NCBI GenBank assembly: GCA_945910395.1
Contig: CAMDYX010000011.1
Location: forward strand, 1 to 58,044
DNA: 58,044 bases
Origin: an uncultured Agathobacter sp.
GTDB taxonomy: Bacteria > Bacillota > Clostridia > Lachnospirales > Lachnospiraceae
Direction: 5' to 3'
The notes under the pieces were generated by a model. It ran no database searches. It saw nothing but the letters and a program-made list of their open reading frames with translations, and had not been told where the DNA came from. This document shows, piece by piece, positions 10,342-29,265 of this stretch (positions within the stretch are counted from its first letter, which is position 1; each line of letters opens with the position of its first letter). The position numbers and the translations under genes were made by a program.

Positions 10342-11415
10342 CATCCATTCTTCTGCCTGCTTGCGATAATCCGCAGCAGTCTGGCGAAGGGTGGCAACCA
10401 TGTCGGAGTCCGCAGAAAAATTTCCTCTTGAACCTGCCGGAATCGAAAGAAGAGCCTCCTCCTTTGCATCCGCCCAGCGCTCATATACTTCTGCTAAAGC
10501 TGCAAGGGGAATGCCGCCGCCGGCCTCGATATCCAGAGCAGGGGTGGACTCAAAGGCAGCATTGTAATACCACAGGGCTGCCTCATTAAAATCTCCCTTT
10601 GACAGATAGTAAGCTCCAAGCTCGCAGCATACTTCACTGCAGCCATTTTGTGCCACATTTTTTAAGGCAATGGAGAAGAAACGGTCTATCTCTCCCTTCT
10701 GGCGGTAATAGCGGCAAAGGACACAGGTGGGTTCCTCAGAAGGGGACTGTTGGTACAGGCCTTCAAAGAAGGCTGCGGCATCGCAAAAGTCCTCCTCGGT
10801 TCCACATTTTAGCAGCTCCTTTGCATACATGGTTATAATACTCGGAGGCAGGAAGCCGTTTTTCTCATAAGAATGAAGAAAGATAGAAAAATCCCGCTTG
10901 CCATGCAGCCCGTGAGGAAGATGCTGGATTTCGATATCGCTGTCATAGATGACAGGATCAAGGCGGACGGTCTCGTGAACCGGATTGATCCAGGTAAAGG
11001 TGCGGAGCCTGCGAAACAGCTTTGGGCGGACGTCATAGGCGGAATTCTGTACCGTGTTAAATTCAGAAGGGGTCAGATACTTCATGGTAACAATTTCGAT
11101 TTCCGGAAGCATAGCGGCCTTTAGCATCAAAAAGCGTTTGCGGTTGGTCTCATCCAGATACTCATCCGCATCCGGTGCATAAATGTATTCCATTGTGGCC
11201 TTCGAGAAAGAGAAATTTCTTGCAGCAGCGAAGTCCTCGCACCAGAAGAAATCATATACTTTGTCTGTATACTGTCTGGCAATCTCCTTGGTCCTATCGG
11301 TGGAGCCAGTATCTACGATAATAATCTCATCCATAAGCCCCTTTAGGCTGTCTAAGCAGCGGGACAACACCTTTTCCTCGTTTTTTACAATCATGCACAA
11401 GCTGATGCTAATCAT
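10324..11415 (-). CDS. Family 2 glycosyltransferase with TPR-like C-terminus
   Basis: The 363-aa cytoplasmic protein starts with a GT-A fold of family GT2: ISLCMIVKNEEKVLSRCL, the nucleotide-binding IIIVDTGSTDRT and the metal-binding DADEY. The C-terminal half is helical with repeated Ala/Tyr/Leu patterns that look like TPR repeats, as in SunS-like or clostridial protein-glycosylating transferases. The start at 11415 is chosen for the AAAGGGGG ribosome site; an upstream ATG at 11466 lacks one. It is transcribed away from the exopolysaccharide locus, so a role in that locus is unproven. The acceptor and sugar donor are unknown. Confidence 0.8.
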   Translation of the reverse strand: MISISLCMIVKNEEKVLSRCLDSLKGLMDEIIIVDTGSTDRTKEIARQYTDKVYDFFWCEDFAAARNFSFSKATMEYIYAPDADEYLDETNRKRFLMLKAAMLPEIEIVTMKYLTPSEFNTVQNSAYDVRPKLFRRLRTFTWINPVHETVRLDPVIYDSDIEIQHLPHGLHGKRDFSIFLHSYEKNGFLPPSIITMYAKELLKCGTEEDFCDAAAFFEGLYQQSPSEEPTCVLCRYYRQKGEIDRFFSIALKNVAQNGCSEVCCELGAYYLSKGDFNEAALWYYNAAFESTPALDIEAGGGIPLAALAEVYERWADAKEEALLSIPAGSRGNFSADSDMVATLRQTAADYRKQAEEWMLPQTI

Positions 11416-11503
11416 GCCTTTTCCCCCTTTGAAGCATTTGATTAATTTCATTTTACAACAACCCATAGGGGTTTACAATCGGTATTACTTTAGTACTTTA
11501 TCA

Positions 11504-11532: not shown

Positions 11533-11573
11533 TGAACCATGAGTAACTAGTGGAACTATGGTGGAGGTTCCTA

Positions 11574-12353
11574 ATGAATAGAAACATAACTGTTTTATCA
11601 AACAAAACAAAAATCGTGCTTAATGTGGGGACGATTTTATATGTACTTATGGTAGGAAACATTGCTGAAATACATATTTCTATTGATAGAGTATATGAAA
11701 CAAGAATGACACTTCACGAGCTTTCGAAGTTACTTGGCGAGGGCTTTATTAAAGTGAACAGGGGGTGTCTTGTTTCGGTAATGGCCATACATGATATTAC
11801 GGACAAAATTAACCTATGCAACGGAGAATCCTTGATTTATACGCTGCGAAAGAAAAAGGAAATTATGGATTTGTTCCGGGAAAAACAAAAGAGGATTATT
11901 AAAAGCTTTTCGGAGGAGGGGACACCTTTAACCCAAGAAGAATATCACGAGTATTACAAAAGCTTCGACTATATGCCCTTTGCGTTTACAGATATAGAAA
12001 TAGTGTTTAACGAGGAACAGCATGCGGTAGACTGGGTATTCAGGTATGGAAATGAGAAGCTGGCGGAGATTGAAAAGCTACCACTAGAACAGTTAATAGG
12101 GAGCTCCTTCGGAAGTCTGTTTTCCAATATGGATTCCAAATGGCTGAAAAGCTATGAGCGTGCGGTACTTTATGGGGAAACACTAGAGCTCATGGATTAT
12201 AGTCCTGAGATAGAAAAAAATTTGAAAGTAATTTGTTTTCCAACATTTGCAGGGCATTGCGGTTGTATACTGTTTGATCTTTCAAAACTAAAATTTTCAA
12301 AGAATAGTGTCGATTTGTCATTGTTAAATGTCGTTTTATCACAGAATGGTTGA
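11574..12353 (+). CDS. LytTR-type transcriptional regulator with PAS-like C-terminal domain
   Basis: The 259-aa protein has an N-terminal LytTR DNA-binding domain (about residues 1-100). It shows the family pattern of a strand-rich start, then TRMTLHELSKLL, then the FIKVNRGCLV phrase. Residues about 125-235 (ADIEIVF-like start, YGNEKLAEIEKL, LIGSSFGSLF) look like a PAS domain, usually a signal sensor. No receiver domain is present, so it is not a standard response regulator. It lies directly before the Pel-type operon and is its best candidate regulator. TGGAGG at 11562-11567 supports this start over an ATG-less upstream extension. Confidence 0.72.
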   Translation: MNRNITVLSNKTKIVLNVGTILYVLMVGNIAEIHISIDRVYETRMTLHELSKLLGEGFIKVNRGCLVSVMAIHDITDKINLCNGESLIYTLRKKKEIMDLFREKQKRIIKSFSEEGTPLTQEEYHEYYKSFDYMPFAFTDIEIVFNEEQHAVDWVFRYGNEKLAEIEKLPLEQLIGSSFGSLFSNMDSKWLKSYERAVLYGETLELMDYSPEIEKNLKVICFPTFAGHCGCILFDLSKLKFSKNSVDLSLLNVVLSQNG

Positions 12354-12442: not shown

Positions 12443-12814
12443 ATGAGTATATTAGTAAATGTTGCTACGGTAATAGTTGGCATGGGACTAATTTTTTATG
12501 TGATAAGACTTGTTGTTAAAAAGCAAATGTCAGAATCGCAGTCTGTCCTATGGATAGTTATCGGTGCTATCGCAATTATTCTTGGCATTTTTCCAGGTCT
12601 TATACCATGGATTGCAAGTCTGCTTGGAATCTGGTATGCGCCTTCTGTCCTGCTGCTAGTTGCAACGATTGGTCTGCTTCTTATCTTGTTTAGAAATTCA
12701 ATTGTGGTATCAGTTCATGAGGATGAAATCCATGAGCTTACCATCCAGATTGCGCTACTGAAGGATGAGAATGAAGCATTAAAAGAAAAAATAAAGGAAA
12801 TGGAGCGTGAGTAA
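12443..12814 (+). CDS. DUF2304-type small membrane protein
   Basis: This 123-aa protein has three hydrophobic segments (about residues 3-23, 35-55 and 60-82) and ends in a charged coiled coil. The pattern fits DUF2304 (FYVIRLVVKKQMSESQSVLW, GIFPGLIPWIASLLGIWYAPS), a family found beside GT2 glycosyltransferases in polysaccharide loci. Its role is unknown, perhaps a membrane partner of a transferase. It starts behind GAGAGGA, 89 bp after the regulator gene, and its stop overlaps the GTG start of pelD, suggesting translational coupling. Confidence 0.75.
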   Translation: MSILVNVATVIVGMGLIFYVIRLVVKKQMSESQSVLWIVIGAIAIILGIFPGLIPWIASLLGIWYAPSVLLLVATIGLLLILFRNSIVVSVHEDEIHELTIQIALLKDENEALKEKIKEMERE

Positions 12815-15008
12815 TATCAAAGTATTGGTATGTGGTTCCTATCAGGGAGCTTTTCAAGTAAAACTATGTCAGAGACTAAAAAAGGAAAAGCAGGAGGTGT
12901 TTGTACTTTCCAATGATTCCGTAAAGGAGAGGAAGACATCTGCTGTTTTTCAGGACTATCGTTTTCCATATGACAGCGAGAGTGTAATGAATGTCATAAG
13001 CAGCATCTCGCCAGATGTGGTTATTTTCTGCGGAGCCCTTGATGCAACCTATGACTGGAAGAAGGGGGTGTCAAAATCTGTAGAATACGTGGCTGGAACT
13101 ATGAATACGATGACATGTGCGGCAGAAGCAAATGTTAAGAAATTCATATATCTGTCATCACTGGATGTTTTTGCGGGAAATACTGAGAAAGAAATCGGGG
13201 AAGAAGAAATCCCAATCCCGACTACGCAACAAGGAAAGTCCATTCTTCAGGGAGAAAAGATATGTCTGGCCGCATCTGACAAGAATGAAGATACAAAAAT
13301 CGCGGTGGTACGTATGCCACAGGTGTATGGAGTATGCGACAAAAAGGCGGAAAGTAGTATTTGTAACGAACTGGCAAATGCTATCAGCGGAGGCAGCAAG
13401 TGGGAATTAAATAGAAGTGAGACTTACCACCTGATGTATTTAGATGACGCTGTGGATGCCGTATATAAGATTCTCATGCAAGAGCAGGAGGATGTGAAGA
13501 AGGTATATCATGTTGTTCCTCAAGCAGCAGTTAAACAGGATTTTATTTTAGAAGCCTTTGAAAATTTGATGGATGGGAATGGAGAAATTCCATTAAAGAA
13601 AAAGGTGGAAAACGTAAGATTCTCTTCTGCTTCACAACAGGAACTGGGATTTACGGAAAAATATTCCCTTGTGGAAGGATTGGCGCTTTTTTTCAAGCAG
13701 TATATCGAATTGCCACAAAAAGCGGAAGTAAAGGAAAGTAAAAAGCAACAGGTAAAAGAACAGACGAAATTGTTTAGGCCTATTTTGGAGACGATACTAG
13801 CATTTGTGCTTGTACAGTTGTTTATTACGTTCACAGGTAGTGCAGCATTTCACAATGTGATAGATGTTTACCTGATATATGTTCTGGTAATCGCAGTGGT
13901 TTTAGGCGCTGTACCATCAGTTCTGGCAGTAGTATTAAGCATTTTAGGTAAGTATTACATGCTATTTGCAACAAATCTTACTCTATCTGTTTTTACGGAC
14001 TATACAAATTATCTTTGGATTTTACAGATTTTTTCCCTTGCGGTTTTGACGGGATACCTGAAGGACTGGTATGCAAGGAATGTAGGCGAAATGAAGAGGG
14101 AAAATGATTACCTTAAGAAAGAAATTGAGTCTATAAAATCCATCAACGATAGCAATGTGGAAGTAAAAGATGTATTTGAAAAACGTCTCGTTAATTATAA
14201 GGACAGTTATGCGAAGGTGTATGACATAATTTCACAGTTGGACGATCTTGAGTCAAAGTCAATTCTATTTAAGGCAGCGAGGGTAGTTGCTGATGTAATG
14301 GAGAGTAAGGATGTTGCTGTTTATACATATGAGGCAAAAAGCGGATTTTGCCGTTTGATGGCATCTACATCGGAGTTTGCAAGAAAGAAGGGAAAATCTT
14401 TCAGGTTAAGTGACTATGCAGAGGTTTTAGAAAAATTAAACGATAAGCAAATCTACATGAACCGCAAGTTTGAAGAGAATATGCCGATGTTTGCAGCAGG
14501 TACTTACAACGGAGATACGCTTGAGGTAGTCATTATGGTCTGGAGCATGGATCTTGTAAATGTAAGTCTTCACCAGAGTAACATGCTTACCATGCTGACA
14601 AAACTGATGGAGCGTTCTACTACAAGAGCATTAAGATATATGGAGTCAGTTAAGAACTCAACATATATAGCTGACACAAAGGTTATGGAGGCAAAGGCGT
14701 TTGAGGATATGCTGGATATCTACTGTTCCGGTGAGTCAGAAGGGGTATTGGAATACACACTACTGAAGGTTGATTCTTATGAAGAGGAAAAGGAGAAACT
14801 GTATGAGGACTTAAGTCATATGACTCGAGGAACAGACTACCTTGGTATTGATTCAGAAGGACAGGTTTATATTCTCCTTACAAACTCAAATGAAGAGGAT
14901 TCATCCTGGGTTATGAAAAGATGTAGTGAACATAACATAAAGACACAGATTGTTAAGAAAAACAAAGGAAAGACAGCGGAGGAAGTATTCTCTGATAGCA
15001 GATTTTGA
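12807..15008 (+). CDS. pelD: PelD-like c-di-GMP receptor fused to an N-terminal degenerate SDR domain
   Basis: The 733-aa protein has a Rossmann SDR/epimerase-like domain (residues 1-about 300), four membrane helices (about 325-430), a coiled coil, a GAF domain (about 480-620) and a C-terminal degenerate GGDEF domain. In the SDR part the catalytic YxxxK is replaced: Gln142 and Ile146 stand at the Tyr and Lys positions in TQQGKSILQGE, and the Gly-rich loop is altered (GSYQGAFQ). In the GGDEF domain the inhibitory-site RxxD is intact (R674-GTD-677), while SEGQV replaces the catalytic GGDEF. PelD proteins bind c-di-GMP through RxxD and switch on Pel polymerisation. The GTG start overlaps the DUF2304 stop. 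Confidence 0.82.
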   Translation: MSNIKVLVCGSYQGAFQVKLCQRLKKEKQEVFVLSNDSVKERKTSAVFQDYRFPYDSESVMNVISSISPDVVIFCGALDATYDWKKGVSKSVEYVAGTMNTMTCAAEANVKKFIYLSSLDVFAGNTEKEIGEEEIPIPTTQQGKSILQGEKICLAASDKNEDTKIAVVRMPQVYGVCDKKAESSICNELANAISGGSKWELNRSETYHLMYLDDAVDAVYKILMQEQEDVKKVYHVVPQAAVKQDFILEAFENLMDGNGEIPLKKKVENVRFSSASQQELGFTEKYSLVEGLALFFKQYIELPQKAEVKESKKQQVKEQTKLFRPILETILAFVLVQLFITFTGSAAFHNVIDVYLIYVLVIAVVLGAVPSVLAVVLSILGKYYMLFATNLTLSVFTDYTNYLWILQIFSLAVLTGYLKDWYARNVGEMKRENDYLKKEIESIKSINDSNVEVKDVFEKRLVNYKDSYAKVYDIISQLDDLESKSILFKAARVVADVMESKDVAVYTYEAKSGFCRLMASTSEFARKKGKSFRLSDYAEVLEKLNDKQIYMNRKFEENMPMFAAGTYNGDTLEVVIMVWSMDLVNVSLHQSNMLTMLTKLMERSTTRALRYMESVKNSTYIADTKVMEAKAFEDMLDIYCSGESEGVLEYTLLKVDSYEEEKEKLYEDLSHMTRGTDYLGIDSEGQVYILLTNSNEEDSSWVMKRCSEHNIKTQIVKKNKGKTAEEVFSDSRF

Positions 15009-15037
15009 TAGAGCAGGTACAGGGAAGGAACATTTTT

Positions 15038-15943
15038 ATGACGAAATATCAGATTTTTCTTATAATACTGTTGATAAATGCGGTGGTGTCACTTGCTTAC
15101 ATGGTTATAATGGGGATTAAAAAGCAGCTGAAAAAAGGAATCATAGTCGGTGTCATCATGCTTATTCTACCAGTAAGCGGTCCTCTGTTGATATTCTTTT
15201 CCTATTTGTTTTTTCTGCTTTTAAAGCATACAAATACTGCTTATATCAACCCGGATGAATTAAGCTTCAGAAAAGAAAAAATAAAAATCATTGAGGGAGA
15301 CAGCTTACAGAGAGGTATTAACAAGGTACCGATTGAAGAGGCTCTCCTAGAGTCGGATAGCGAAAATACCAGAAGAGTGTTGCTTGATGTATTGAAGGCG
15401 GATTTCGAAAGTTCTATTCCTCTGTTAATGAAGGCTATTGAAAATGAAGACAGTGAGGTGTCTCACTATGCATCGGCTGCGATATCGGATGTTCTGTCGA
15501 AATTTAAAAAACGTCAGAAAGAAATCGATCAGCAGTATCGTGAACATAAGGAAGATGAAGAACTTTTGACAGCTTATCGAAAATATGTATATAAGTATCT
15601 GGCATATCATATTTTCCCGAAGACAGAAGAGACACATTATCTGGAATTGTGTAGCGAGTTGATGGAACAGGCATACAAGCTGGTTTCCTCCATTGAACCG
15701 GGAGATTATGAGAACTGGATAAAGTTGTTAGTGGAGTATGATAAGGAAGGGCAGGCTAAGGAATGGCTTAGAAGAATGCAAAAGGCTTATCCGGAAAAAC
15801 TGCCTACTTATAGGGCAGAGCTGCAATATTGCTATCGATACGATCATCATAATTTCAGAACATGTCTTCAGAAAATTAAAAACTCCCAGATTATGTTGGA
15901 TGAGGATACGCTGGAGTTGGTAAGATTTTTTCAAATTGTATAA
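15038..15943 (+). CDS. pelE: PelE-like membrane protein with helical repeats
   Basis: The 301-aa protein has two N-terminal membrane helices (about residues 4-26 and 36-62) and a cytoplasmic part rich in helical pairs (about 85-300), as in the TPR/HEAT-like region of PelE. In Pel systems PelE joins PelD, PelF and PelG in the inner-membrane synthase complex. The identity rests on topology and its place right after pelD; no unique motif is visible. The start at 15038 is chosen for AGGGAAGG upstream; a TTG at 15005 overlapping the pelD stop is the alternative. Confidence 0.68.
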   Translation: MTKYQIFLIILLINAVVSLAYMVIMGIKKQLKKGIIVGVIMLILPVSGPLLIFFSYLFFLLLKHTNTAYINPDELSFRKEKIKIIEGDSLQRGINKVPIEEALLESDSENTRRVLLDVLKADFESSIPLLMKAIENEDSEVSHYASAAISDVLSKFKKRQKEIDQQYREHKEDEELLTAYRKYVYKYLAYHIFPKTEETHYLELCSELMEQAYKLVSSIEPGDYENWIKLLVEYDKEGQAKEWLRRMQKAYPEKLPTYRAELQYCYRYDHHNFRTCLQKIKNSQIMLDEDTLELVRFFQIV

Positions 15944-15966
15944 AGAGACAGCAGGGAGAATAGACG

Positions 15967-18159
15967 TTGTATAGCACAAGAATATTGGAGTTAATACAGA
16001 TATTTAGTTTATATACCATTTTGGTATTTGGTCTGGCAGAGATTATCGGAAGACCTTTTACACGAGGAAAAGGCTTTGTTTATCGAATCTGCACGGATAT
16101 AGTGGTGGGTAATTTTTATATCATTAATATGATGTTTTTACTCGCCTATTTAAAATGTCTGTATCAACCCATTATGATTGTGCTTTTTTTGCTTGGTGCA
16201 GGGTTGATCCGGCTGTTTACTGACAGAAAACGGGTAACAGATTATTGGAAGCATAAGTATGATATTATCTGTCGGATATTAAAAAAAGAATATGGCAGGA
16301 ATCTGGTAAGACAAAAGGTATTTGGAAAAACGGTACAAGGTGTAAAAAGCACGATTATTAAGCTGTTTCGGGGAAGGGTATTAGAAGGAATACTGCTTCT
16401 ACTCGCCATGGCTATTAATGTATATTACTTTAGCTATCAGGCACTAAATTTTGTATCTTATGCTGCACCGGATGTGGAAGTACATCTATACTGGATTCAG
16501 TCGCTTGTAGGGGGAGAACTTTTTCCTGCTGGTGTTTATCCGTTCGGAATGCACTGTGTGGGAGCTGCACTTGCACTAATTTTCAATGTTTCAGCTGTTA
16601 CGGTTGGAAGAATGCTGGGCGTTGTGACTTCCTTTTATCTTATGCTTCTATGCTACCTGCTTGTGAAAACCCTTTGCCGTTTGAAATACGCACCAATTGT
16701 TGGATTCTTGATTTATACAATTGCAAATCTTACGGTTGATACCACATATATGAGATATTCTGCGATGATCTCGCAGGAATATGCAATGCTTTTTCTCATA
16801 CCGATAATGTTTTTCCTTTACCGGTATTTGAATGAAAAGAGGAAACTGGATCTAGTCCTTTTTGGAATGTCATTTTCGTTGACAATAGCAATCCATTTCT
16901 ATATCACAGCAGTTGCCTGTTTCTTTTTCCTGTCAATTGGAATTGTGTATTTGTATCGGATGATAAAACGGAGAATGCTGGTGCCGATTATTCTTTGCGG
17001 GATTATTAGTACTGTTGTTGCCGTCGCACCTTTACTTGTGGGACTTTGCATGGGATATGAGCTGGAACAGTCCTTTATTTATGGAGCTTCGGTAATCATG
17101 AACGATTCTGATATGTATGCGGACAGTACCGGAAATACTAGGCTAGAGGAAGAGCCGGAGGAGGAAGAAGTAGAGCAAAAAATAAATTATACCCCCGAAT
17201 TTATCATTGAAGAATCTGCCAATCAATTGAAAAAGTATGTTTTTAAAGATATACGTTATTTGTGGATTTGTGTGATTCCATTGATACTTGTCTTTGGTGA
17301 ATGGCTGATACGCTTATGCAAAGGCTCTGTAACAAATCATACGTTAGAATATTTGTCTCAAATGCTATATCTGCTTTTTATTCTGGTAGAGGTATTATTG
17401 GATAGATTTGAATTGCCGGTCATTATAGAACCAAAGCGAATGGGGATTTTTATTGCATATATGCTGCCGCTTTTGATGGCAATTCCGTTTGAGATACTAT
17501 TTATGCTGCTGCAAAAAAAGAAGGTTTGGAAAACAGTATGTAATGTTGTGGCATTAGGGTGTCTAGGTGGTGCCTGTGTTTTCATTATATCAAGTGGGAA
17601 CTTAAAAGAACTTCCAACAGTATATTATTTTCAGACTACAGGTGCAATGACGGCAACCTGTGATATCATTAAACATTATGATAAATATTCTTGGACGATT
17701 GTGTCTCCTGTAAATGAAACAACCCTTACCTACAACAGCGGATATCATTATGAATTGGTGGATTTTGTTACAGAACTGGAAAACTATAAAAAAGGAATGG
17801 AACTGTTTATTCCTACAGAATATGTTTTTTTCTATATTGAGAAAATGCCAATTCAACGATATGGATTCTCCTTTTCTGTTGAGGATGAGATTTTAAGAAA
17901 CAGAGACACAATCAGTATAGAAGACGCCAGGGAAGAGATTGGGAATGACTATAAAAAACCGGATGAGTACTATAAGTACAAACGACCGGAACTGATGTCG
18001 AGGATGTACTATTGGGCAAAAGCATACCAAAGTTACTTTCCGGACGAGATGACCGTATTCTATGAGGATGATGAAATAGTGGTGTATCGTCTGAAACAAA
18101 ATACATATGCCCTAAATAATCTGGCCATTGATTATAGAGAGGAGATGCTGTATGAATGA
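15967..18159 (+). CDS. Large polytopic membrane protein of the Pel-type locus, function unknown
   Basis: The 730-aa protein has about 12-13 predicted membrane helices up to residue 540, then a soluble extracytoplasmic-type domain of about 180 residues. A very acidic segment (EEEPEEEEVEQK, about residue 395) lies between helices. The arrangement resembles GT-C glycosyltransferases or other polyprenyl-sugar enzymes, but I do not see a sure catalytic DxD/ExD signature; the DVEVH near residue 168, after the first big loop, is a candidate. It probably uses a TTG start behind AGGGAG. Its end overlaps the next GT2 gene by 8 bp. It has no counterpart in the described pelDEADAFG set. Confidence 0.6.
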   Translation: MYSTRILELIQIFSLYTILVFGLAEIIGRPFTRGKGFVYRICTDIVVGNFYIINMMFLLAYLKCLYQPIMIVLFLLGAGLIRLFTDRKRVTDYWKHKYDIICRILKKEYGRNLVRQKVFGKTVQGVKSTIIKLFRGRVLEGILLLLAMAINVYYFSYQALNFVSYAAPDVEVHLYWIQSLVGGELFPAGVYPFGMHCVGAALALIFNVSAVTVGRMLGVVTSFYLMLLCYLLVKTLCRLKYAPIVGFLIYTIANLTVDTTYMRYSAMISQEYAMLFLIPIMFFLYRYLNEKRKLDLVLFGMSFSLTIAIHFYITAVACFFFLSIGIVYLYRMIKRRMLVPIILCGIISTVVAVAPLLVGLCMGYELEQSFIYGASVIMNDSDMYADSTGNTRLEEEPEEEEVEQKINYTPEFIIEESANQLKKYVFKDIRYLWICVIPLILVFGEWLIRLCKGSVTNHTLEYLSQMLYLLFILVEVLLDRFELPVIIEPKRMGIFIAYMLPLLMAIPFEILFMLLQKKKVWKTVCNVVALGCLGGACVFIISSGNLKELPTVYYFQTTGAMTATCDIIKHYDKYSWTIVSPVNETTLTYNSGYHYELVDFVTELENYKKGMELFIPTEYVFFYIEKMPIQRYGFSFSVEDEILRNRDTISIEDAREEIGNDYKKPDEYYKYKRPELMSRMYYWAKAYQSYFPDEMTVFYEDDEIVVYRLKQNTYALNNLAIDYREEMLYE

Positions 18160-18892
18160 GAGCAAGGAAAAGAGCAGGGTGTTGATTCTAATCCCTGCAT
18201 ATAATGAAGAAGAAAATATCGGAACTTTTCTGGAATCCATGAGTTGTTCCAAAATTGCGGGAGAGGCAGATATTCTGGTAATCGATGATGCATCGAAGGA
18301 CCGAACCGCAGAAATTGCCAGAAAACATGGTGTGAAGGTAATCAGCCAGGTCTACAATATGGGCTATGGGGCTGCACTTCAGCTTGGATATAAATATGCG
18401 ACCAGTCATGGATATGATTATATACTCCAGCTGGATGCAGATGGTCAGCATGATGCCTGCAATTTGGATATCTTGTATGACTGCTTGACGAATAGTAAAA
18501 AGGACTGTGATATTATTATCGGCTCCCGCTTTTTAGAGGGAAGTGAAACCTACAAGATGGGAGCAATTAGAGTTTTAAGTATCAAATTCTTCCGTTGTAT
18601 CATAAAATGGATAGGACATGTCCAGATTACCGATCCTACATCTGGGTTGCAGGGGTTGAATAGAAAAGCCTTTTCCTACTATGCACAATATGGAAAATTT
18701 GATTACAGGTACCCGGATATCAATATGATTATGCAAATGCTTTTACGCGGGTTTCGAATTGGAGAGTGTAGAGCATGTATGCACCAGCGGGTAGCAGGAA
18801 CCTCCATGCATTCCGGAATCTGGAAACCATTTGCATATATGGTATTAATGTCTTTGAGTACGATAGCAGCTATTATCCGAAATAAAGAATAG
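18152..18892 (+). CDS. DPM1-like family 2 glycosyltransferase
   Basis: The 246-aa soluble enzyme shows the complete GT2 pattern: LILIPAYNEEENIGTFL, LVIDDASKDRTAEIARKHG, QLDADGQHD and the SRFLEGSE region, followed by ITDPTSGLQG. This subgroup (polyprenol-phosphate mannose synthase-like) usually makes polyprenyl-phosphate sugars or adds branch sugars. It has no C-terminal membrane helices, so it may use the preceding polytopic protein, whose gene it overlaps, as membrane partner or downstream user. GAGAGGAG lies 7 bp before the ATG at 18152. Confidence 0.85.
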   Translation: MNESKEKSRVLILIPAYNEEENIGTFLESMSCSKIAGEADILVIDDASKDRTAEIARKHGVKVISQVYNMGYGAALQLGYKYATSHGYDYILQLDADGQHDACNLDILYDCLTNSKKDCDIIIGSRFLEGSETYKMGAIRVLSIKFFRCIIKWIGHVQITDPTSGLQGLNRKAFSYYAQYGKFDYRYPDINMIMQMLLRGFRIGECRACMHQRVAGTSMHSGIWKPFAYMVLMSLSTIAAIIRNKE

Positions 18893-18906
18893 AAACGAGC
18901 AGTAAA

Positions 18907-20559
18907 ATGGGAAAAAAGCCAAAAAAACATTATCGATTGCAAAAGAAACACTTTTTTGCAGTTACGGCGGAAATTATATTCCTTTTTCTAGTATTCCAGC
19001 TGATAGGTAATTTCACATTTGTGGAATTTCGGAATCCTTCGGCTTCCTTAAAAGAAAAGATGGGAGATGAGAATCTGATTGAGCTTGCTGAAAAAATGGA
19101 CGCCGTACCTGACTATGAAACAGACGAACGAATGGAATATGTTGTGATCAGTAAGGATTTCTCCGAAGAGAGCATGGAGGTGTCTTCTGTTCTGGAAACT
19201 TTAGAGGGGATGAAGCTGACACATGAATGTGTGTTAATGTCAGAAGCAGAAAATCTAAAGATATGTAGCCTGCCCGATACAGTAAGGGGAATCATTATCT
19301 GTGGAGACACAGAGGGTGTGGCACTATCTAAGGAACAAAGGGAAGCGTTGATAGGCAGGGGTATTCACATTATTTATACGCAAATGCCAGGAGCGGAAGG
19401 CATCCGGGAAAGCCATTTGGAGTCTCTTCTTGGAATAAGAAAGATGAATGGGATATTAAAACAGAAGGGAATGCGATTTACCGATGAAGTATTTCTTGGC
19501 GGCATTCTGGATTTGGAGGAAATAGAGTATCCGCTAGAGGATGTGGAACTGGAAGCTACCTGTAAGGTTTATGCTTATGGTCTAAAGGGTCTGGATGGGG
19601 AGGAGGTAGAACGAAATGAGGATCTGCCTCCCATTATGTGGCGCAACAGAGTGGGCCAAAGCAAGGTATTTGTTGTAAACGGCAAGTTTTTTGAGGAGAA
19701 TAAGGGATATGGAATTTTAACTGCAATATTGACACAAATTTATGGAGACTATTTATATCCGGTTGCAAATGCCTCGGTAATGATATATGACTCAATCCCA
19801 TATAAAGGTGTTGCAAATGAGGATATGATGAAGGCGCTGTATAGCAGGGATTCCTTACGTTTCCAGACAGACATTTTGATGCCAAATCTGGTAAGCATCT
19901 GTAAAAGGCTGGATATTGTTCCTACCTTTTATACCTCTGCAGACAGTACCATGCCGGAAATGGATTATTTCGCACGGTCTGTGCTGGATTTAAAGGGAGA
20001 ATTGATTTATCTGGAAAACGCATCCGTGAAAGCAATTGATATATCCAATCCGGAAGGAAGAATATGGAATAAGTATCCGGATATTCCGGTTATTGTTTCT
20101 GGTTTTAAAAAGAACGATGATGATATGACGAAATTGTATTCCATCGGATCTACTTTCGGAGTTGTGGTACATAAAGTGGATGTGTCTGAAATTGTTAATC
20201 CGGAAAATGAAGAGATGAACTGGGTAACGGTTTCAAAAGATTATTCGGAATACATTGCTTACTATAAGGAGGATTTTGCCTCCTTCGAGAGCGTGACTGC
20301 ACAGGAGGCTTCTATTCGCTACATGGAATATATGCTAATGGAACCATGTATTTCATATGACGGGAATGATATTGTGGTAGATATTGAGAATATGCCCCAA
20401 AAAGCAAGCTTTATTCTACGGACTGAAAAAGAAATTATTGAAGCAGAGAATTGCAAATACACAAAACTGTGCAAGGGAGCATATTTAATAGAGACACAGC
20501 AGGACCATATCCACATTTCCCTAGAGGATGAAAATGCAGTTTTCCGTGGAGACTTTTAG
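18907..20559 (+). CDS. DUF2194 / PelA-like extracytoplasmic protein
   Basis: The 550-aa protein has an N-terminal membrane helix (about residues 16-37) and a long extracytoplasmic part. The first half looks like a Rossmann or GATase-like region (VISKDFSE, GIIICGDTEG). The second half has a polysaccharide-deacetylase-like part (about 260-480) with PTFYTSADSTMPEMD and GELIYLENASV. The gene occupies the position of pelA-DA between pelE and pelF in Gram-positive Pel clusters. The metal-binding His pair of active deacetylases is not evident, so activity is uncertain. Pel is partly deacetylated GalNAc/GlcNAc polymer in known producers. Confidence 0.62.
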   Translation: MGKKPKKHYRLQKKHFFAVTAEIIFLFLVFQLIGNFTFVEFRNPSASLKEKMGDENLIELAEKMDAVPDYETDERMEYVVISKDFSEESMEVSSVLETLEGMKLTHECVLMSEAENLKICSLPDTVRGIIICGDTEGVALSKEQREALIGRGIHIIYTQMPGAEGIRESHLESLLGIRKMNGILKQKGMRFTDEVFLGGILDLEEIEYPLEDVELEATCKVYAYGLKGLDGEEVERNEDLPPIMWRNRVGQSKVFVVNGKFFEENKGYGILTAILTQIYGDYLYPVANASVMIYDSIPYKGVANEDMMKALYSRDSLRFQTDILMPNLVSICKRLDIVPTFYTSADSTMPEMDYFARSVLDLKGELIYLENASVKAIDISNPEGRIWNKYPDIPVIVSGFKKNDDDMTKLYSIGSTFGVVVHKVDVSEIVNPENEEMNWVTVSKDYSEYIAYYKEDFASFESVTAQEASIRYMEYMLMEPCISYDGNDIVVDIENMPQKASFILRTEKEIIEAENCKYTKLCKGAYLIETQQDHIHISLEDENAVFRGDF

Positions 20560-20590
20560 AGAAATATGAACCAGGCGGGAGGACGGAAAA

Positions 20591-21991
20591 ATGAAGATAT
20601 GCATGATTATAGAGGGGGCATACCCTTATGTTACAGGAGGCGTTTCAAGCTGGGTGCAACAGGAAATTTTAAGCATGCCGGAGCATGAGTTTATTATTGT
20701 GACGCTCGTAACATCAAGAGAAGAAAAGCGGGAGATAAAATATAAGCTTCCTGACAATGTGCTGGAGCTGCATGAGTTTTACCTTCAAGAAGAAGATTAC
20801 GGAAGATCAAGCAGGAGGAAACATCTTGATAAGAATGAACGAGAGGCCTTCCAGAGCCTGTTTTTCGGAAAAGATGTAAAATGGGAACCGGTTTTTGAAT
20901 ATTTTATGAAGGAAAAAATCTCATTAGATTCATTGATTATGAGTGAAGATTTTTTGAAAATGGCGCGAGAATATTATTGCGCACATTTTGACCGATTGGT
21001 ATTTTCTGATTTTATCTGGACGATGCGTTCTATCTACTTTCCGCTTTTTTCGGTTATGACTTCCAAACTGCCGGAAGCAGATTTGTATCATTGCCTGTCA
21101 ACCGGTTATGCAGGAGTTATTGGAAGCATGGGAAAATATTTATTCCATAAACCTCTGCTGATTTCTGAACATGGTATATATACAAGAGAGCGTGAGGAGG
21201 AAATAATTAAAGCAAACTGGGTAATGGGTGCGTACAAGGATTTGTGGATAAACCAGTTTAGAAAGTTTTCGGATTGCGCTTATTATTATGCGGATAAGGT
21301 TACCTGCCTTTATGAGGGAAACAGAGAACTTCAGGTAGAATTTGGATGTCCGATTGAAAAAACAGTCATTATTCCAAATGGAGTGGATGCAAAAGAATAC
21401 GAAAATATTCCCCAAAAGGATACAAATGATTCCTATATTAATATCGGAGCAATTTTGCGTGTCACTCCTATTAAGGACGTCAAAACCATGCTTAGTGCTT
21501 ATGCAATGGCAAAAGAAAAGAATCCAAAACTTAAGCTTTGGATTTTGGGCCCTCTTGACGAAATGCCGGAATATGTGCAGGAATGTAAAGACATGGTTAC
21601 GTATATGAAAATAGAAGATGTAGTCTTTACTGGCCAGGTAAATGTAAAAGAATATATTGGGAAAATGGACTTCCTTGTGTTAAGTAGTTTGAGCGAGGGA
21701 CAGCCACTGGTAATTCTGGAGGGATTTGCTGCACACAAACCATTTGTTACAACAAACGTTGGGGATTGCAAAGGCTTAATTTATGGAAATGGCGATGGTT
21801 TTGGAGAAGCCGGAATTGTTGTCCCGGTTATGAATACGACGAAGATGTCGGAAGCAATGCTTTTACTTGCAGAACGAGAGGACAGGCGTATCATGATGGG
21901 GGAAGCCGGATACCGGCGTGTACTATTGTATGACAAAAAGAAAATCTATGATACATACAGAGAGATTTATGCAGAACTGGGAGGAAAATAG
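20591..21991 (+). CDS. pelF: PelF glycosyltransferase (GT4)
   Basis: The 466-aa cytoplasmic enzyme begins with the PelF hallmark MIIEGAYPYVTGGVSSWVQQ and has a GT-B fold with HEFIIV, IPNGVDAKEY and the E-x7-E motif in SEGQPLVILEGF. PelF uses a UDP-sugar (UDP-GalNAc/UDP-GlcNAc in studied systems) to polymerise the Pel backbone. GGGAGGA precedes the start. The pelG start follows 2 bp after the stop, so the pair is translated together, as in all known Pel operons. Confidence 0.92.
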   Translation: MKICMIIEGAYPYVTGGVSSWVQQEILSMPEHEFIIVTLVTSREEKREIKYKLPDNVLELHEFYLQEEDYGRSSRRKHLDKNEREAFQSLFFGKDVKWEPVFEYFMKEKISLDSLIMSEDFLKMAREYYCAHFDRLVFSDFIWTMRSIYFPLFSVMTSKLPEADLYHCLSTGYAGVIGSMGKYLFHKPLLISEHGIYTREREEEIIKANWVMGAYKDLWINQFRKFSDCAYYYADKVTCLYEGNRELQVEFGCPIEKTVIIPNGVDAKEYENIPQKDTNDSYINIGAILRVTPIKDVKTMLSAYAMAKEKNPKLKLWILGPLDEMPEYVQECKDMVTYMKIEDVVFTGQVNVKEYIGKMDFLVLSSLSEGQPLVILEGFAAHKPFVTTNVGDCKGLIYGNGDGFGEAGIVVPVMNTTKMSEAMLLLAEREDRRIMMGEAGYRRVLLYDKKKIYDTYREIYAELGGK

Positions 21992-21993
21992 TC

Positions 21994-23448
21994 ATGGCAG
22001 GTATAGGGTTTGAATTAAAACGAATATTTAAAAAAGACAGCCTAATTAGTGTTCTTTCCGGTGCGGCATACAGTACAGTAATTGTAATCGGACCGACTAT
22101 TATTGTTATGGCTACCTTACTCGCATTATATGGAGTACTGGGATATATGGAGGTTATATACACCGATCGGGAACTGCTTTCCTCTACTATATTGTATATA
22201 TTCATATTTGCTTTATTAATCACAGCACCCATCAATGCAGTAATGTCAAGATATATTGCAGACAGAATATTTGAAGAAGAATATGAGAACATTCTCCCTT
22301 CTTTTTATACGGGTTTGGCAATTTCGGAATTGGCAGGGGCTATTGTTGGGATTCCATTTGCAGCTCGTCTGGTGCTTGTGGGTAGGGTAGAGCTTACATT
22401 TGTTGCAATCTCTTATCTGTTTTTCATGGAATTGATTGCGGTATTTTACGCATTGACATATCTTACAGCAACAAAAGACTACAAAATTGTTGCGCTTGAC
22501 TTTTTAATCGGTATGATTGTAGCATTTCTAGTTGCCTTTGTTGCAAATAAACAGTATGATTGTCAGCTGATCTATGCAATACTTGGGGGAATGTGTGTTG
22601 GATTTTGGGTGATTGCAATGTTGCAATTTGCGTATATCAGACACTTTTTTTCTGTAAGCAACAGAAACTACAGAGGGTGTTTGTCCTATTTTGGGAATTT
22701 CAAACTGCTTTTTTTGGGAACCTTATTTTATACCTTAGGTATCTATGTACATAACTTTGTGTTTTGGGGAATAAGCGGTCACTTAGTGATTGCAGAAAGC
22801 TTTTATTCCTATCAGCCTTATGATATGGCCGCGTGCCTTGGTATGTTTACAAATATTTCCGCTATGGTTATTTTTACGGTAATGGCAGAGACAAAATTCC
22901 ATGACATCTATCAGTCCTATAATGAAGCAATTATCGGAGCAGCGCTAAAGGATATTGAACTTGCCAAGAAGAATATGTTCCGTCTTCTGATTCAACAAAT
23001 TGGTTATGTGGTTCGTGTACAGGCAATCATATCTGTTATTATTTTCTTGCTGGTTATTATTTTTCTTCCAGACTATGGTTTTAGTGGTCTTGAAATGACC
23101 ATTTATCCCTCCCTTGCTGCTGCGTTCTTCGGAATTTTTACGATGTATTGTAATATTATCTTTTTGTACTATTTTAATGATGAAACAGGTACATTCTACA
23201 CGGGATTAATTTTTTTCATTGGGACACTGGTTGGAAGTCTGATTGCTACAAGATTTGAACCGCAGTTTTATGGAATAGGCGCACTATTTGGAGCATTACT
23301 TGGATGGACATTCAGCTATTTTAGAATTCGTTATCTGGAAAAGCACTTTGACTATCACATTATGTGCAGTATGCATGTGATCAAACCAAAGCATACCAGG
23401 AAGCCGGATTCTGTTGTATATCGAAGAAATGGAGAGAAAGCAGAGTGA
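21994..23448 (+). CDS. pelG: PelG polysaccharide exporter-type membrane protein
   Basis: The 484-aa protein has about 12 membrane helices and begins with MAGIGFELKRIFKKDSL, the typical PelG start. It belongs to the MOP/polysaccharide-transport superfamily and works with PelD, PelE and PelF to move the growing polymer across the membrane. It directly follows pelF. The next gene's GTG start overlaps its stop as GTGA, a coupled arrangement. Confidence 0.9.
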   Translation: MAGIGFELKRIFKKDSLISVLSGAAYSTVIVIGPTIIVMATLLALYGVLGYMEVIYTDRELLSSTILYIFIFALLITAPINAVMSRYIADRIFEEEYENILPSFYTGLAISELAGAIVGIPFAARLVLVGRVELTFVAISYLFFMELIAVFYALTYLTATKDYKIVALDFLIGMIVAFLVAFVANKQYDCQLIYAILGGMCVGFWVIAMLQFAYIRHFFSVSNRNYRGCLSYFGNFKLLFLGTLFYTLGIYVHNFVFWGISGHLVIAESFYSYQPYDMAACLGMFTNISAMVIFTVMAETKFHDIYQSYNEAIIGAALKDIELAKKNMFRLLIQQIGYVVRVQAIISVIIFLLVIIFLPDYGFSGLEMTIYPSLAAAFFGIFTMYCNIIFLYYFNDETGTFYTGLIFFIGTLVGSLIATRFEPQFYGIGALFGALLGWTFSYFRIRYLEKHFDYHIMCSMHVIKPKHTRKPDSVVYRRNGEKAE

Positions 23449-24800
23449 GGAAGAAAATGTTTTTACTTGTACTGCTTTGGGTATTTATCGGAGTGTTGAT
23501 CGGTGGATTTTTGGTGTATCGAAATTATCAGGAAGAGAGAATGGTTACTTTTTCTTATTCCGAAAATGATGAAGATATAGTAAATCCTGCGCGTGGCTTT
23601 TATACGCAGATTTATTATAAGGAGCCGGAACGACTGGGAGCCATCAAGGAAGAGGGGCAGAGTTTATGTCTGGTAACCATGAGTTTAAAGGACCACATGG
23701 AGGAACCTATACCGGACGAGAAACTGGAGAGACTAAGAACGTTGTTTGAAGAAGCGAGAAAGCAGCAGATAATGTTGCTTTTTCGTGCTGCTTACAGACA
23801 GAATGAAGAGTGCGGTGAGCCGGAATTATCCATGATAAAAATCCACATCGAGCAGCTGTCAGAGGTAATTAATGAATATAAGGATGTTGTACTTGTGGTG
23901 CAGACAGGAATGGTTGGTCTATGGGGAGAGTGGCATGGAAGCATATACTTAGAAGATGAAGCTGCGTTGAAAACGGAGGCAATGAGGGTTGTGGAATGGT
24001 GGCTTGAGGATTTGGATCCTTCTATCAACCTAAATTTGCGGAGACCACTTTTTATTCAAACAGCAATTGAGGAAGGGCTGGATGGAAGTCGGATTGGAAT
24101 GCATAATGATGCGCTTTTAGCAACAGATAGCGATATGGGGACATATATAGACCGGACCGAAGACCTTGCATGGTGCGAGGAGAACCTAAACGCAAAGGTG
24201 AATGGTGGGGAAATGCCCTATGTCAGTGAATATACCGAACCGAAACATGCAGTAGAGGAATTTGAGCAGCTATCACTCATGTATCTGAATGCGTATTACA
24301 ATGTTGAGGTTCTAGAGGATTGGAAGAACAAGACCCTTTACGGAGAGAATGCACTTGATTATATTAGCAAGCACTTGGGATATCGGTATTCGCTGGAGAC
24401 ACTGGAAACAACGGAAAAAATATATTCCACATCGGATAGCATTCAGATGAAAATCCAGTTAAGAAATAGCGGATTCTCATCCATACAGAGTCGTTTTCGG
24501 TTGTATCTGGTGATAAATGATGGGGAAGAGAAGACCTTTATTCCATTGGAAAAAGCAGATGGCACAAAAGAACTCGAAATATATGAGTGTTTTGTAGAAT
24601 TAACAGAAAAGGAACCTTTTTCAATTGGACTTTGCTATACAGATGCTGTGGATACAAAAGCAGGAAGACTAATGGATTATGCTCATACAGTGCAGTTTGC
24701 AAATGATGAGATTTATTTTGAAGAAGGGATAAATTACTTTATAAGCTATCAGTATACAGAGGAAGGAAAGACAGATCTTGTTCCGGTTATAATCAAATAG
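23445..24800 (+). CDS. Secreted DUF4874/DUF4832 protein, possible glycoside hydrolase
   Basis: With the GTG start at 23445 the protein has 451 residues. The start is chosen because GGAGAG lies upstream and the GTG overlaps the pelG stop; an ATG at 23364 would read 80 bp inside pelG. A signal or anchor (about residues 5-22) is followed by a barrel-like region with NPARGFYTQIYY, VVLVVQTGMVGLWGEWHG and RRPLFIQT, matching DUF4874 then DUF4832. These families are thought to be sugar-active. It may trim or process the polymer, replacing the PelA hydrolase; this is inference. Confidence 0.68.
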   Translation: MRKKMFLLVLLWVFIGVLIGGFLVYRNYQEERMVTFSYSENDEDIVNPARGFYTQIYYKEPERLGAIKEEGQSLCLVTMSLKDHMEEPIPDEKLERLRTLFEEARKQQIMLLFRAAYRQNEECGEPELSMIKIHIEQLSEVINEYKDVVLVVQTGMVGLWGEWHGSIYLEDEAALKTEAMRVVEWWLEDLDPSINLNLRRPLFIQTAIEEGLDGSRIGMHNDALLATDSDMGTYIDRTEDLAWCEENLNAKVNGGEMPYVSEYTEPKHAVEEFEQLSLMYLNAYYNVEVLEDWKNKTLYGENALDYISKHLGYRYSLETLETTEKIYSTSDSIQMKIQLRNSGFSSIQSRFRLYLVINDGEEKTFIPLEKADGTKELEIYECFVELTEKEPFSIGLCYTDAVDTKAGRLMDYAHTVQFANDEIYFEEGINYFISYQYTEEGKTDLVPVIIK

Positions 24801-24831: not shown

Positions 24832-26328
24832 ATGAGGAAAGAGAAAAGGAGAAGCCTAAAACTGAATATTATTGCAAGTATGGCGATTCAGGTTGTCTCA
24901 CTTTTGGTGAATCTGATTTCCAAGCGTGCCATCCGCATGTATCTGGGCGTTGAATATCTGGGAATACAGAGTATTTATTCAAATTTCTGTGATGTCATGA
25001 GCTTTGCTTTTTTTGGAATTGGAACAGCTATGCTGTTTAGTATGTATGGAGCTTTTGCAAGAAATGATGAGGAGGAAATAGCCTCTTTTTATCAGCACTA
25101 TGATGGAATTTACAAAAAAATATCCCGACTTGTTTTTGTTGGAGGGTTACTTTGTACCCTATTGGCTCTATATACAGTAAATGGAAATGTAAGTGTATTC
25201 TATATATGTATTACGTACCTTACTTATATGCTATCTGTTGTGTTGTATAATCGACAACTGGTGCGTAATTATTTTATTCAGGCAGATCAGAGACGCTATG
25301 TGGTTGCCTTTGTGACCGGTGGAGTAGATGCAATTGCTCTTTTGGCAGAGGTGTTTATCTTATGCTATTTTAGAAACTATGAGTATTTTTTGATTTGTAT
25401 TTTAGTAAAAAATCTACTCATAAATTATCTGTTGAAAAAGTACCTGCAAAAAAATTATGCCTACATTTTTGTGCCTGCCAAAGAGCTGGAGGAAAGCGAG
25501 AGGAATACAATATTCGTGAATGCGAAGGATATGGTATTGTATCGTTTCGGGAAGGTATTAATCAGTAACACGGACAGCATTTTTATCTCTCGGTTTACCA
25601 GTACAATTTTAGCGGGAATCTATTCGAATTATCAGTTTATTATTATGGGAATTCGGAGCGTATTGGGAGCGTTATTTGAAGCAATCAAAGGAAAAGTAGG
25701 ACATCAGGCGCAGACAGAGAGCTTGGAGGAGCAGTATCAGAATTTTAAAAAATATCTGTGCTTAAACTCATGGCTGATGGGGTGCTCCATTGTATGCTTT
25801 TACTTCTTAATAGAAGATTTTATTTATGTATGGATGGGAAAAGTAGATTCACTTGTGCAGAGCATAATAATAATTATACTTGTCAACTACTACATCGATG
25901 AATCTCAGATTGCTCTTCGAACTTATCGGGAGACAGCAGGGCTTTTTCACAATATACGGAAAATGATTTTAGTAAAAGGGATTGCAAATATTATCCTTTC
26001 CATGATTATGGGAAAGCTTTGGGGAATTGTGGGAGTACTTGCTGCAACAACGATTACTTCAGCCTCAACATTGTTTTGGTATGAACCGAAGATTGTGTAC
26101 GGATATTTTAAGAAGAGCATTTGGAATGAGGTAATTTATCATATTATCACAGTTATTTTGCTTGTAACATCTTTTGGGATTACTTATCTGGTTTCCCACA
26201 ATATGACAGGAGCAGGTATTTTATTTTTATTAAGCAAAGGAGCGGTGTGCTTTGTTTCTTCAAATATTGTATACCTTGTATTATGGGGGATTTGGAAGAT
26301 AAATGGGAGGATGAGGCATGAAGGATAG
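24832..26328 (+). CDS. Wzx-like polysaccharide flippase (MOP/MATE superfamily)
   Basis: The 498-aa integral membrane protein has 12-14 predicted helices and a basic N-terminus (KEKRRSLKLNIIASM). The sequence RAIRMYLGVEYLGIQSIYSN is typical of the oligosaccharide-flippase family. Such proteins flip undecaprenyl-linked repeat units outward. A flippase beside pelG, itself a MOP-type exporter, suggests a second glycan or a lipid-linked decoration made by the downstream transferases. The next gene starts within its last 11 bp. Confidence 0.82.
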   Translation: MRKEKRRSLKLNIIASMAIQVVSLLVNLISKRAIRMYLGVEYLGIQSIYSNFCDVMSFAFFGIGTAMLFSMYGAFARNDEEEIASFYQHYDGIYKKISRLVFVGGLLCTLLALYTVNGNVSVFYICITYLTYMLSVVLYNRQLVRNYFIQADQRRYVVAFVTGGVDAIALLAEVFILCYFRNYEYFLICILVKNLLINYLLKKYLQKNYAYIFVPAKELEESERNTIFVNAKDMVLYRFGKVLISNTDSIFISRFTSTILAGIYSNYQFIIMGIRSVLGALFEAIKGKVGHQAQTESLEEQYQNFKKYLCLNSWLMGCSIVCFYFLIEDFIYVWMGKVDSLVQSIIIIILVNYYIDESQIALRTYRETAGLFHNIRKMILVKGIANIILSMIMGKLWGIVGVLAATTITSASTLFWYEPKIVYGYFKKSIWNEVIYHIITVILLVTSFGITYLVSHNMTGAGILFLLSKGAVCFVSSNIVYLVLWGIWKINGRMRHEG

Positions 26329-27211: not shown

Positions 27212-27234
27212 TTCATGATAATAGAAACGGAGGG

Positions 27235-28308: not shown

Positions 28309-28314
28309 GGAAAA

Positions 28315-29241: not shown

Positions 29242-29265
29242 GTAATAAGAAAGTAGAGAAAATAG

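Follow-up and report, generated by a model that had tools for sequence, protein, structure and literature searches.

Which polymer is made by a pel locus that has lost the active site of its deacetylase and holds genes resembling those of another kind of glycosylation system in its midst? The question is raised by a 58,044-nt contig of an uncultured Agathobacter sp. (Lachnospiraceae; CAMDYX010000011.1, assembly GCA_945910395.1), the whole of which we call the window. Judged by gene content, positions 12443-24800 are a pelD-E-A-F-G locus, accompanied by genes for a DUF2304 protein, a polytopic protein of 730 amino acids (aa) and a family 2 glycosyltransferase (GT2). Our favoured reading, to which we give a probability of roughly 0.6, is that this would be a Pel-type locus gated by cyclic di-GMP (c-di-GMP) whose polymer is side-chain glycosylated outside the membrane instead of being de-N-acetylated. 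A modified Pel-like polymer had already been proposed in a sequence-only reading of the same DNA and is still the product that the genes would fit best; the genes named there are all present where they had been placed, and what had been missed is that the extra ones look like the parts of a transmembrane glycosylation machinery of a type already described.

The locus comprises, in this order:

12443-12814, plus strand: DUF2304 small membrane protein, GacJ/WpsB-like, presumed GT2 activator (PF10066, 83.5 bits, cut-off 25.5)
12807-15008, plus strand: PelD-like protein with SDR domain, transmembrane region and degenerate GGDEF (PF01370, 65.3 bits; PF13493)
15005-15943, plus strand: PelE-like protein, two N-terminal hydrophobic segments and a soluble part (position; profile common to relatives)
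15967-18159, plus strand: candidate C-type glycosyltransferase (GT-C), 730 aa (profile comparison to GT-C proteins; invariant residues)
18152-18892, plus strand (open reading frame, ORF, open from 18128): DPM1-like GT2, presumed polyprenyl-phosphate-sugar synthase (PF00535, 77.5 bits, cut-off 23.3; DxDxQ, here QLDADGQ)
18907-20559, plus strand: PelA-deacetylase homologue (DUF2194), presumed polymer-binding pseudoenzyme (PF09960, 79.2 bits, cut-off 30.4)
20591-21991, plus strand: PelF, a family 4 glycosyltransferase (GT4) and polymerase with the glutamate pair E369/E377 (NCBIfam NF038011, 371.8 bits, cut-off 100; Pfam DUF3492, 258.9 bits)
21994-23448, plus strand: PelG exporter (PF16933, 405 bits, cut-off 29)
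23457-24800, plus strand (ORF open from 23364): DUF4874/DUF4832 membrane-anchored hydrolase homologue (PF16173, PF16116; DUF4874 113.9 bits, cut-off 30.1; DUF4832 128.3 bits, cut-off 29.2)

The order D-E-A-F-G is conserved, with two genes inserted between E and A. The identities of PelF and PelG are clear, both scoring far over the curated cut-offs; whether they belong to another polysaccharide family was checked with the family models, and this is not what was found.

Loss of the deacetylase active site in loci with the extra genes

The homology of the DUF2194 protein to PelA, already recognised in the sequence-only reading, was confirmed by a match to structure 9zau (E 2e-10), which we take to be Bacillus cereus PelADA, and it had been overlooked that the deacetylase active site is gone. 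The catalytic residues of B. cereus PelADA are D262, D263, the HxxxH motif, R458 and H488 (PMC13254593). We placed these six residues in the homologues by alignment with 9zau and scored the best copy per locus; the window protein keeps one of the six and none of the three motifs.

In a family survey PelG was found in 72 of 397 genomes, and the 72 neighbourhoods together with the window gave 73 loci (labels beginning with L denote compared neighbourhoods, those beginning with G genomes). We called a locus a module locus if it contained GT-C or at least two of the genes for DUF2304, GT-C and GT2. So defined, the module is present in 42 of the 73 loci, with all three genes within the stretch in 34; L087, whose GT-C gene lies just outside the stretch, and L048, where GT-C is the only one of the three, are included. 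In every one of the 42 the best deacetylase copy keeps none (34 loci) or one (8 loci, the window among them) of the six residues. Of the 31 non-module loci 25 keep all six, L099 keeps three, L100 and L102 keep one and three have no readable copy, and no module was seen in the 25 intact loci, 11 of which were read on stretches shorter than 19 kb, from which a distant GT-C gene could escape; whole genomes were searched separately. L070 is broken and was scored on fragments, and L099 and L100 are short contigs.

An alignment-free motif search of copies longer than 480 aa found all three motifs in 0 of 41 module copies versus 24 of 30 others. No motif at all is present in 40 of the 41, and L044 has a DDxP string; the six non-module copies without the full motifs are those of L076, L078, L082, L099, L100 and L102, the first three being second copies beside an intact one. 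A tandem second PelA copy with two to three of the six residues lies beside the intact one in L076, L078, L079 and L082 (a partial one in L099). Among loci from named genomes (the best 80 of 116, see below) 72 of 73 copies lack any motif and one has a DDxP string. The emptied copies are open reading frames, and the ratio of nonsynonymous to synonymous substitution rates (dN/dS) was 0.09 and 0.12 in the two computable pairs, which are rough values because of near-saturated synonymous sites. Anaerobutyricum hallii, Fusicatenibacter saccharivorans and Blautia luti are among the species with emptied-site pel loci.

CotH, VTC and DUF4956 form a second accessory group of Gram-positive pel loci (PMC7112168; Whitfield et al. 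2020). The full group occurs in 22 of the 25 intact-deacetylase loci. The exceptions are L078 with CotH only and L083 and L098 with none, and of these L078 and L083 were read on stretches that stop shortly behind pelG; 41 of the 42 module loci lack all three. In the canonical loci L072, L074, L076, L078 and L082 PelG and a CotH kinase-like protein form a single ORF of 1080-1103 aa (the CotH profile scores 802-841 bits against the PelG ORF), which suggests that CotH acts at the exporter.

Two further samples bear on this division. PelG was found in 14 of 40 genomes of the window's genus, 13 of the 14 with a strong GT-C gene, and our expectation, not recorded beforehand, was that the copies would be emptied in the 13 and intact in G818. 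All 11 full-length copies besides that of the window lack any motif, one further copy is a fragment, and G818, which has no GT-C gene, has all three motifs, so that both kinds of locus occur within one genus. In G402 and G803 the GT-C gene and pelG lie on different contigs, and the GT-C gene of G402 has an in-frame stop. In a class survey 15 of 391 genomes exceeded the PelG cut-off, 12 of them new; 12 loci were fetched, 11 from other families. L242, from another family, is a window-type locus with emptied deacetylase, six loci have all motifs and no gene set, L234 and L244 have no motifs and no gene set seen (L244 being a short contig), and three have no readable copy.

The extra genes resemble a transmembrane glycosylation system

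By hydropathy the DUF2304 protein has three hydrophobic segments, the GT-C candidate 13 and the GT2 none. A search of the 730-aa protein against Pfam gave no family match. In its family D169, H173, Y191, P192, H196, R263, E271, H310 and R491 are invariant (38/38 and 62/62 in two overlapping sets), with D169 and H173 located in the loop after the fourth hydrophobic segment, which would agree with the acidic outer-loop residue of GT-C transferases in GacIJKL-type systems. Comparison of the family profile with PMT_2 GT-C proteins by hhalign gave Prob 96.0 and E 3.9e-9 over 116 columns. Controls (PelG, Wzx, PelE and three clusters of other proteins of the same loci) gave Prob 0.1-4.5, fewer than six of them being independent, as the largest cluster seems to be mostly PelG again, and PelE having two segments only. 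Searching solved structures by sequence with the GT-C profile yielded nothing convincing (best E 0.07, unrelated). DUF6541 was considered as a family name and rejected: one of 62 members matches (E 5.6e-5), and the genome searches gave under-cut-off matches only.

The likeliest start of the GT2 gene is the ATG at 18152 behind AGGAG at 18140, so that its overlap with the GT-C gene, whose stop lies at 18157-18159, is real as previously noted, though small (8 bases). D103, D105 and Q107 of the GT2 (ORF numbering) are kept in 38/38. Its best solved relative is the dolichol-phosphate-mannose synthase 5mlz (E 4.4e-12); the best NCBIfam model is the polyprenyl-phosphate-GalNAc (N-acetylgalactosamine) synthase PpgS, but at 82.5 bits against a cut-off of 370 this match does not decide the sugar. 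For the GT-C and GT2 genes dN/dS was 0.04-0.19 in the computable pairs, again rough with synonymous sites near saturation in most.

DxDxQ has been proposed as a hallmark of polyisoprenyl-phosphate glycosyltransferases, and the lactococcal WpsA is a GT2 without transmembrane segment that is activated by a protein with three such segments (PMC10821137). DUF2304 is called typical of GacJ-like proteins (PMC8327497), and multi-part transmembrane glycosylation of the GacJ/GacI/GacL type, reviewed in PMC8035078, adds side chains outside the membrane in streptococci. Because of the DxDxQ GT2, the three-segment DUF2304 protein and the profile link to GT-C proteins, the DUF2304 protein, the GT2 and the 730-aa protein are best read as GacJ/GacI/GacL-like parts.

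The locus had been delimited to 12443-24800; its genes are there, but the conserved gene set runs on to about 30249:

24832-26328, plus strand: Wzx/Polysacc_synt-like flippase, GacK/WpsG analogue (568-634 bits to genes at the same place in L091, L093, L095 and L103)
26318-27211, plus strand: no family assigned (288 bits to an L093 ORF, where homologue and flippase form one ORF)
27178-28308, plus strand: GT2, possible side-chain elongation (PF00535; 389-447 bits to genes of L091, L093, L095 and L103; 259 in L097)
28315-29241, plus strand: no family assigned (no homologue at E 1e-10 in 152 related loci)
29266-30249, plus strand: GT2, possible side-chain elongation (PF00535; 373-418 bits to genes of L091, L093, L095 and L103; 255 in L097)

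PF01943 (Polysacc_synt) matches two of seven aligned relatives of the putative flippase (best E 2e-9) and not the window protein itself. The flippase and the two GT2s (24832-30249) are partly seen again within the genus, in L246-L248 and L250.

The gene set is linked to the pel genes

We asked if the extra genes travel with pelFG in relatives. Three main arrangements were found among the 42 module loci: GT-C between pelE and pelA with a DUF2304-GT4-GT2 row after pelG (17 loci), GT-C after the whole DUF2304-GT4-GT2 row (8 loci) and that of the window (7 loci), the other ten being singletons or cut. The closeness of the GT-C protein of L104, from an uncultured Roseburia sp., to that of the window is 84% identity. 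Of 47 strong GT-C genes in the 397 genomes (best piece over 150 bits), 41 lie within 20 kb of PelG and two beside other pel genes (hand count). The linkage thus held in the genome survey, with 43 of 47 beside pel genes, although not always, as the other four, one of them a fragment, are elsewhere. Named genomes were searched with a GT-C alignment of pel-linked members, and the best 80 of 116 relatives were kept, a sample that overlaps the 73 loci. All of these best 80 are pel-linked, 69 with both PelF and PelG and the other 11 with at least one other pel gene; DUF2304 and GT2 were both seen in 55 of the 80, and in 39 of the 43 with full flanks.

Two loci stand apart. L186 (G019:C29, 8417-10675) holds one of the four strong GT-C genes away from pel genes; its neighbours are several glycosyltransferases of a polysaccharide cluster, and the stretch gave no match for pelD, pelE or pelG. 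In L191 (G240:C105, 5929-10586) a second locus, with few pel genes, combines DUF2304, the GT2 and a PelD-like protein with a GT-C match that is weak.

These data bear on the foremost alternative, a locus with two products, in which the GT2, DUF2304, GT-C and flippase genes serve another wall or capsule polysaccharide and are mere neighbours of the pel core. It could draw on the warning that Roseburia pel genes sit in a larger cluster resembling capsule or teichoic-acid genes and may not make Pel (PMC7112168), on the four GT-C genes away from pel genes and on the two GT2s and the flippase downstream. However, in 29 of the 42 module loci the GT-C gene has its place between pelE and pelA, in the window it shares bases with the GT2 gene, the best 80 of 116 homologues in the named collection are all pel-linked, and the set stays together across the three main arrangements and accompanies the loss of the deacetylase site. 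We therefore regard two separate products as unlikely.

Polymerase, exporter and predicted c-di-GMP site are retained

PelD had been taken as a c-di-GMP receptor, and a predicted I-site, RGTD (R674, D677), is indeed present near the C-terminal end of the protein, ahead of a degenerate GGDEF site. RxxD is kept in 40/40 module loci and in 24/25 other loci, with one gap. The N-terminal SDR domain had been overlooked; its Rossmann and YxxxK signatures are degenerate by eye, and a degenerate SDR domain is described for clostridial PelD (PMC7112168). The transmembrane region matches DUF4118 (PF13493) just under the cut-off. With 30 GGDEF matches in its genome, the bacterium probably uses c-di-GMP.

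The PelE-like protein was assigned by its place in the locus and by a profile that recurs in 68 of the 73 loci, not by a named family, the best Pfam match being HEAT_2 (E 0.006, under its cut-off). Both glutamates of PelF are present in 71/71, and E189, D249 and E283 of the DUF4832 protein (long-ORF numbering) are kept in 54/54. This protein had been counted as an undescribed gene in place of a hydrolase, which does not hold: DUF4832 is listed among the accessory genes of clostridial and streptococcal pel loci (PMC7112168), and the homologue SIR_1591 of Streptococcus intermedius is an active Pel hydrolase (PMC12345266). Of the genes called extra to the pelDEADAFG type, those for DUF2304, the polytopic protein and GT2 stand as parts of the locus.

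A model for side-chain glycosylation of the polymer

In the favoured reading c-di-GMP would bind the RxxD site of PelD and switch on PelD-PelE-PelF-PelG, PelF would polymerise a UDP-N-acetylhexosamine and PelG would export the chain. With the DUF2304 protein as its anchor and activator, the GT2 would load a sugar on undecaprenyl phosphate, which the two downstream GT2s may lengthen and the Wzx-like protein would flip, so that the GT-C enzyme could transfer the lipid-linked sugar to the emerging chain. The PelA homologue would not deacetylate and may have a polymer-binding or scaffold role at the PelG exit, and the DUF4832 hydrolase would trim or release chains. We infer the activities, the sugar, the acceptor and the order of the steps from gene identity, linkage, the catalytic residues kept and lost, and the coupled divergence of GT-C, GT2 and DUF2304 described below. 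Pel-dependent biofilm formation in B. cereus needs a catalytically active PelA deacetylase (PMC13254593); the Pel of S. intermedius is thought to be mainly GalNAc and hence neutral (PMC12345266), suggesting that Pel with little deacetylation can function.

Lipid-linked donors are used by GT-C enzymes on the outer side of the membrane, and for the lactococcal GT-C protein WpsJ a role in joining a complete second polymer to rhamnan has been proposed (PMC10821137). The candidate GT-C enzyme of the window might likewise attach a lipid-linked sugar to the end of the Pel chain, or tether the chain itself to an acceptor in the wall or on a lipid, so that Pel would stay on the cell. The present data do not tell end from side, but monophosphate donors of the GacI/GacJ type are best known for side-chain sugars, and we consider such anchoring less probable still than two separate products.

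Evolutionary history of the two traits

In a PelG tree of 71 rows active-site loss and gene set each change once, on neighbouring branches: the active-site change falls on the branch that cuts off 44 rows and the gene-set change on the next, with 42 rows, both with support of 99 in the Shimodaira-Hasegawa-like approximate likelihood-ratio test (SH-aLRT). L100 and L102, which are emptied and have no gene set seen, are placed between the two branches.

Distance tests, with partial correlations after removing PelF and PelG, were carried out on the 32 of the 42 module loci with all genes. GT-C distances follow those of GT2 (partial r 0.26, p 0.001) and DUF2304 (0.14, p 0.003), GT2 distances follow DUF2304 (0.43), and GT-C distances do not follow PelE or PelD (-0.03 and -0.06). 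The same holds in the 25 loci of other arrangements, where GT-C distances track those of GT2 (0.27) and DUF2304 (0.14) and are not tied to PelE or PelD. Distance tests of such kind are known to be liberal.

Several of our results weigh against the side-chain reading. The association of module and dead site is one old event, exceptionless in our sample and not replicated; since each trait changes once, on adjacent branches, it is not repeated evidence, and glycosylation replacing deacetylation as a recurrent event was dropped as a statistical argument, there being one independent pair. The loss of the active site may have preceded the gene set. L100 and L102, and perhaps also L234 and L244, have lost the motifs with no module seen, and the emptied tandem copies are, from their residues, separate cases of active-site decay without side-chain genes. 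L048 holds both accessory sets (GT-C and all of CotH, VTC and DUF4956), and L102, emptied and without module, has CotH, VTC and DUF4956. The four strong GT-C genes away from pel genes, the one in the L186 cluster among them, belong here as well. The coupling is not exclusive to the module, because in the 25 loci of other arrangements PelD also follows DUF2304 (0.33) and GT2 (0.30), and the distances of GT-C and PelA are weakly linked (r 0.05, p 0.16 in the 32 loci; 0.13, p 0.007 in the 25).

A plain pelDEADAFG locus, with neutral accessory genes that do not affect the polymer and motif loss by unrelated drift, would suit the irregular accessory genes of Gram-positive pel loci (PMC7112168), the single change of each trait and the loci with motif loss alone, but is very improbable in view of the invariant catalytic residues of GT2 and GT-C and the rough dN/dS values of 0.04-0.19 for their genes and of 0.09 and 0.12 for the emptied deacetylase.

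One pair of loci from a single genus, L035 and L039, gave a lead. PelD and PelE are 98%, PelF 94%, PelG 93%, GT2 91% and DUF2304 86% identical between them, while GT-C (29%), the PelA homologue (49%) and the hydrolase (59%) diverge; these three, which would contact the polymer on the outer side, thus diverge jointly, which may resemble a switch of antigen type. The contrast is as sharp in none of ten other pairs compared. GT-C and dead PelA as a co-evolving unit, suggested by this pair, were kept as a lead only, the distance test being weak.

Extending the side-chain reading to the Pel of gut Clostridia as a whole, we tentatively propose, at somewhat below even odds, two classes: a cationic, de-N-acetylated one with CotH, VTC and DUF4956, and a neutral, branched one in which a dedicated GT-C family, together with a PelA that has lost its catalysis and is stationed where PelG releases the chain, adds side chains donated from lipid. 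The type of side chain might then vary between close relatives by exchange of the outward-facing genes GT-C, PelA and hydrolase, a serotype-like switch of a biofilm polymer.

Other features of the window

A possible regulator lies 90 bases upstream of the locus, with a divergent gene before it:

11550-12353, plus strand: LytTR-type DNA-binding regulator with a weak PAS match (PF04397, 38.7 bits)
10324-11466, minus strand: GT2 protein, divergent from the locus (none of the 152 related loci has a homologue at E 1e-10)

Among the 152 related loci the LytTR-type regulator was seen in L104 only. Further downstream, 33521-37906 is likely a restriction-modification cassette (C5 cytosine methylase, EcoO109I-type endonuclease, AAA/SMC-like ATPase) and 38125-43035 likely a mobile element (Mob_Pre just under cut-off, CHC2 zinc finger, VapE-like protein, Tn916-type integrase). 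No RNA family reached the gathering score in the window. Scans of the window gave 57 promoter-like sites versus 65.4 in shuffles and 16 terminator-like sites versus 10.9 in shuffles, and neither was used.

Relation to known systems and implications

Gram-positive pelDEADAFG loci (B. cereus ATCC 10987 and the clostridial and streptococcal versions; PMC7112168) share with the window locus PelD, a putative PelE, the PelA homologue, PelF and PelG in this order as well as DUF4832, and the clostridial versions also the SDR domain of PelD. Unlike them, the window locus has lost the deacetylase site, holds DUF2304, GT-C and GT2 genes, lacks CotH, VTC and DUF4956, and is followed by a Wzx-like flippase and two GT2s. 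Roseburia pel loci are described as lying in larger clusters with GT2 genes (PMC7112168, text and legend of Fig. S7), and part of the present gene content may already be drawn in that figure; the available part of that paper makes no mention of GT-C, DUF2304 or a lost deacetylase site. The S. intermedius pel locus (PMC12345266) also has a DUF4832 hydrolase and a degenerate SDR domain in PelD, but differs in its CotH- and phosphate-type accessory genes and a PelD without GGDEF, and the available part of its description mentions no side-chain genes.

Likened by descriptions rather than by sequence comparison, the extra genes would correspond to GacI, GacJ, GacK and GacL of Streptococcus pyogenes, with a GT2 of the GT-A fold, a separate partner with three transmembrane segments, a putative Wzx-type flippase and a candidate GT-C transferase (PMC8035078). 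The lactococcal WpsA/WpsB-WpsG-WpsJ system has the same parts and extra glycosyltransferases that lengthen the lipid-linked unit (PMC10821137). The acceptor is a rhamnan in both, exported by an ABC transporter in the Gac system and with no Pel genes in the Wps system, whereas here the genes lie in a synthase-dependent Pel locus and the GT-C proteins match no named family.

DUF4832 is not new to pel loci. Among the best literature matches listed, taken by titles and abstract openings and not by figures or supplements, there was no report of a Pel locus with GT-C/undecaprenyl side-chain genes and an inactive PelA. To our knowledge, synthase-type polymer export and undecaprenyl-linked side-chain addition are known only as separate machineries. 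A whole branch of gut-bacterial pel loci is without the deacetylase active site, yet has kept polymerase, exporter and c-di-GMP site. If the side-chain reading is true, these loci would join synthase-type export with undecaprenyl-linked side-chain addition, and a neutral branched matrix polymer would be predicted in common human gut commensals.

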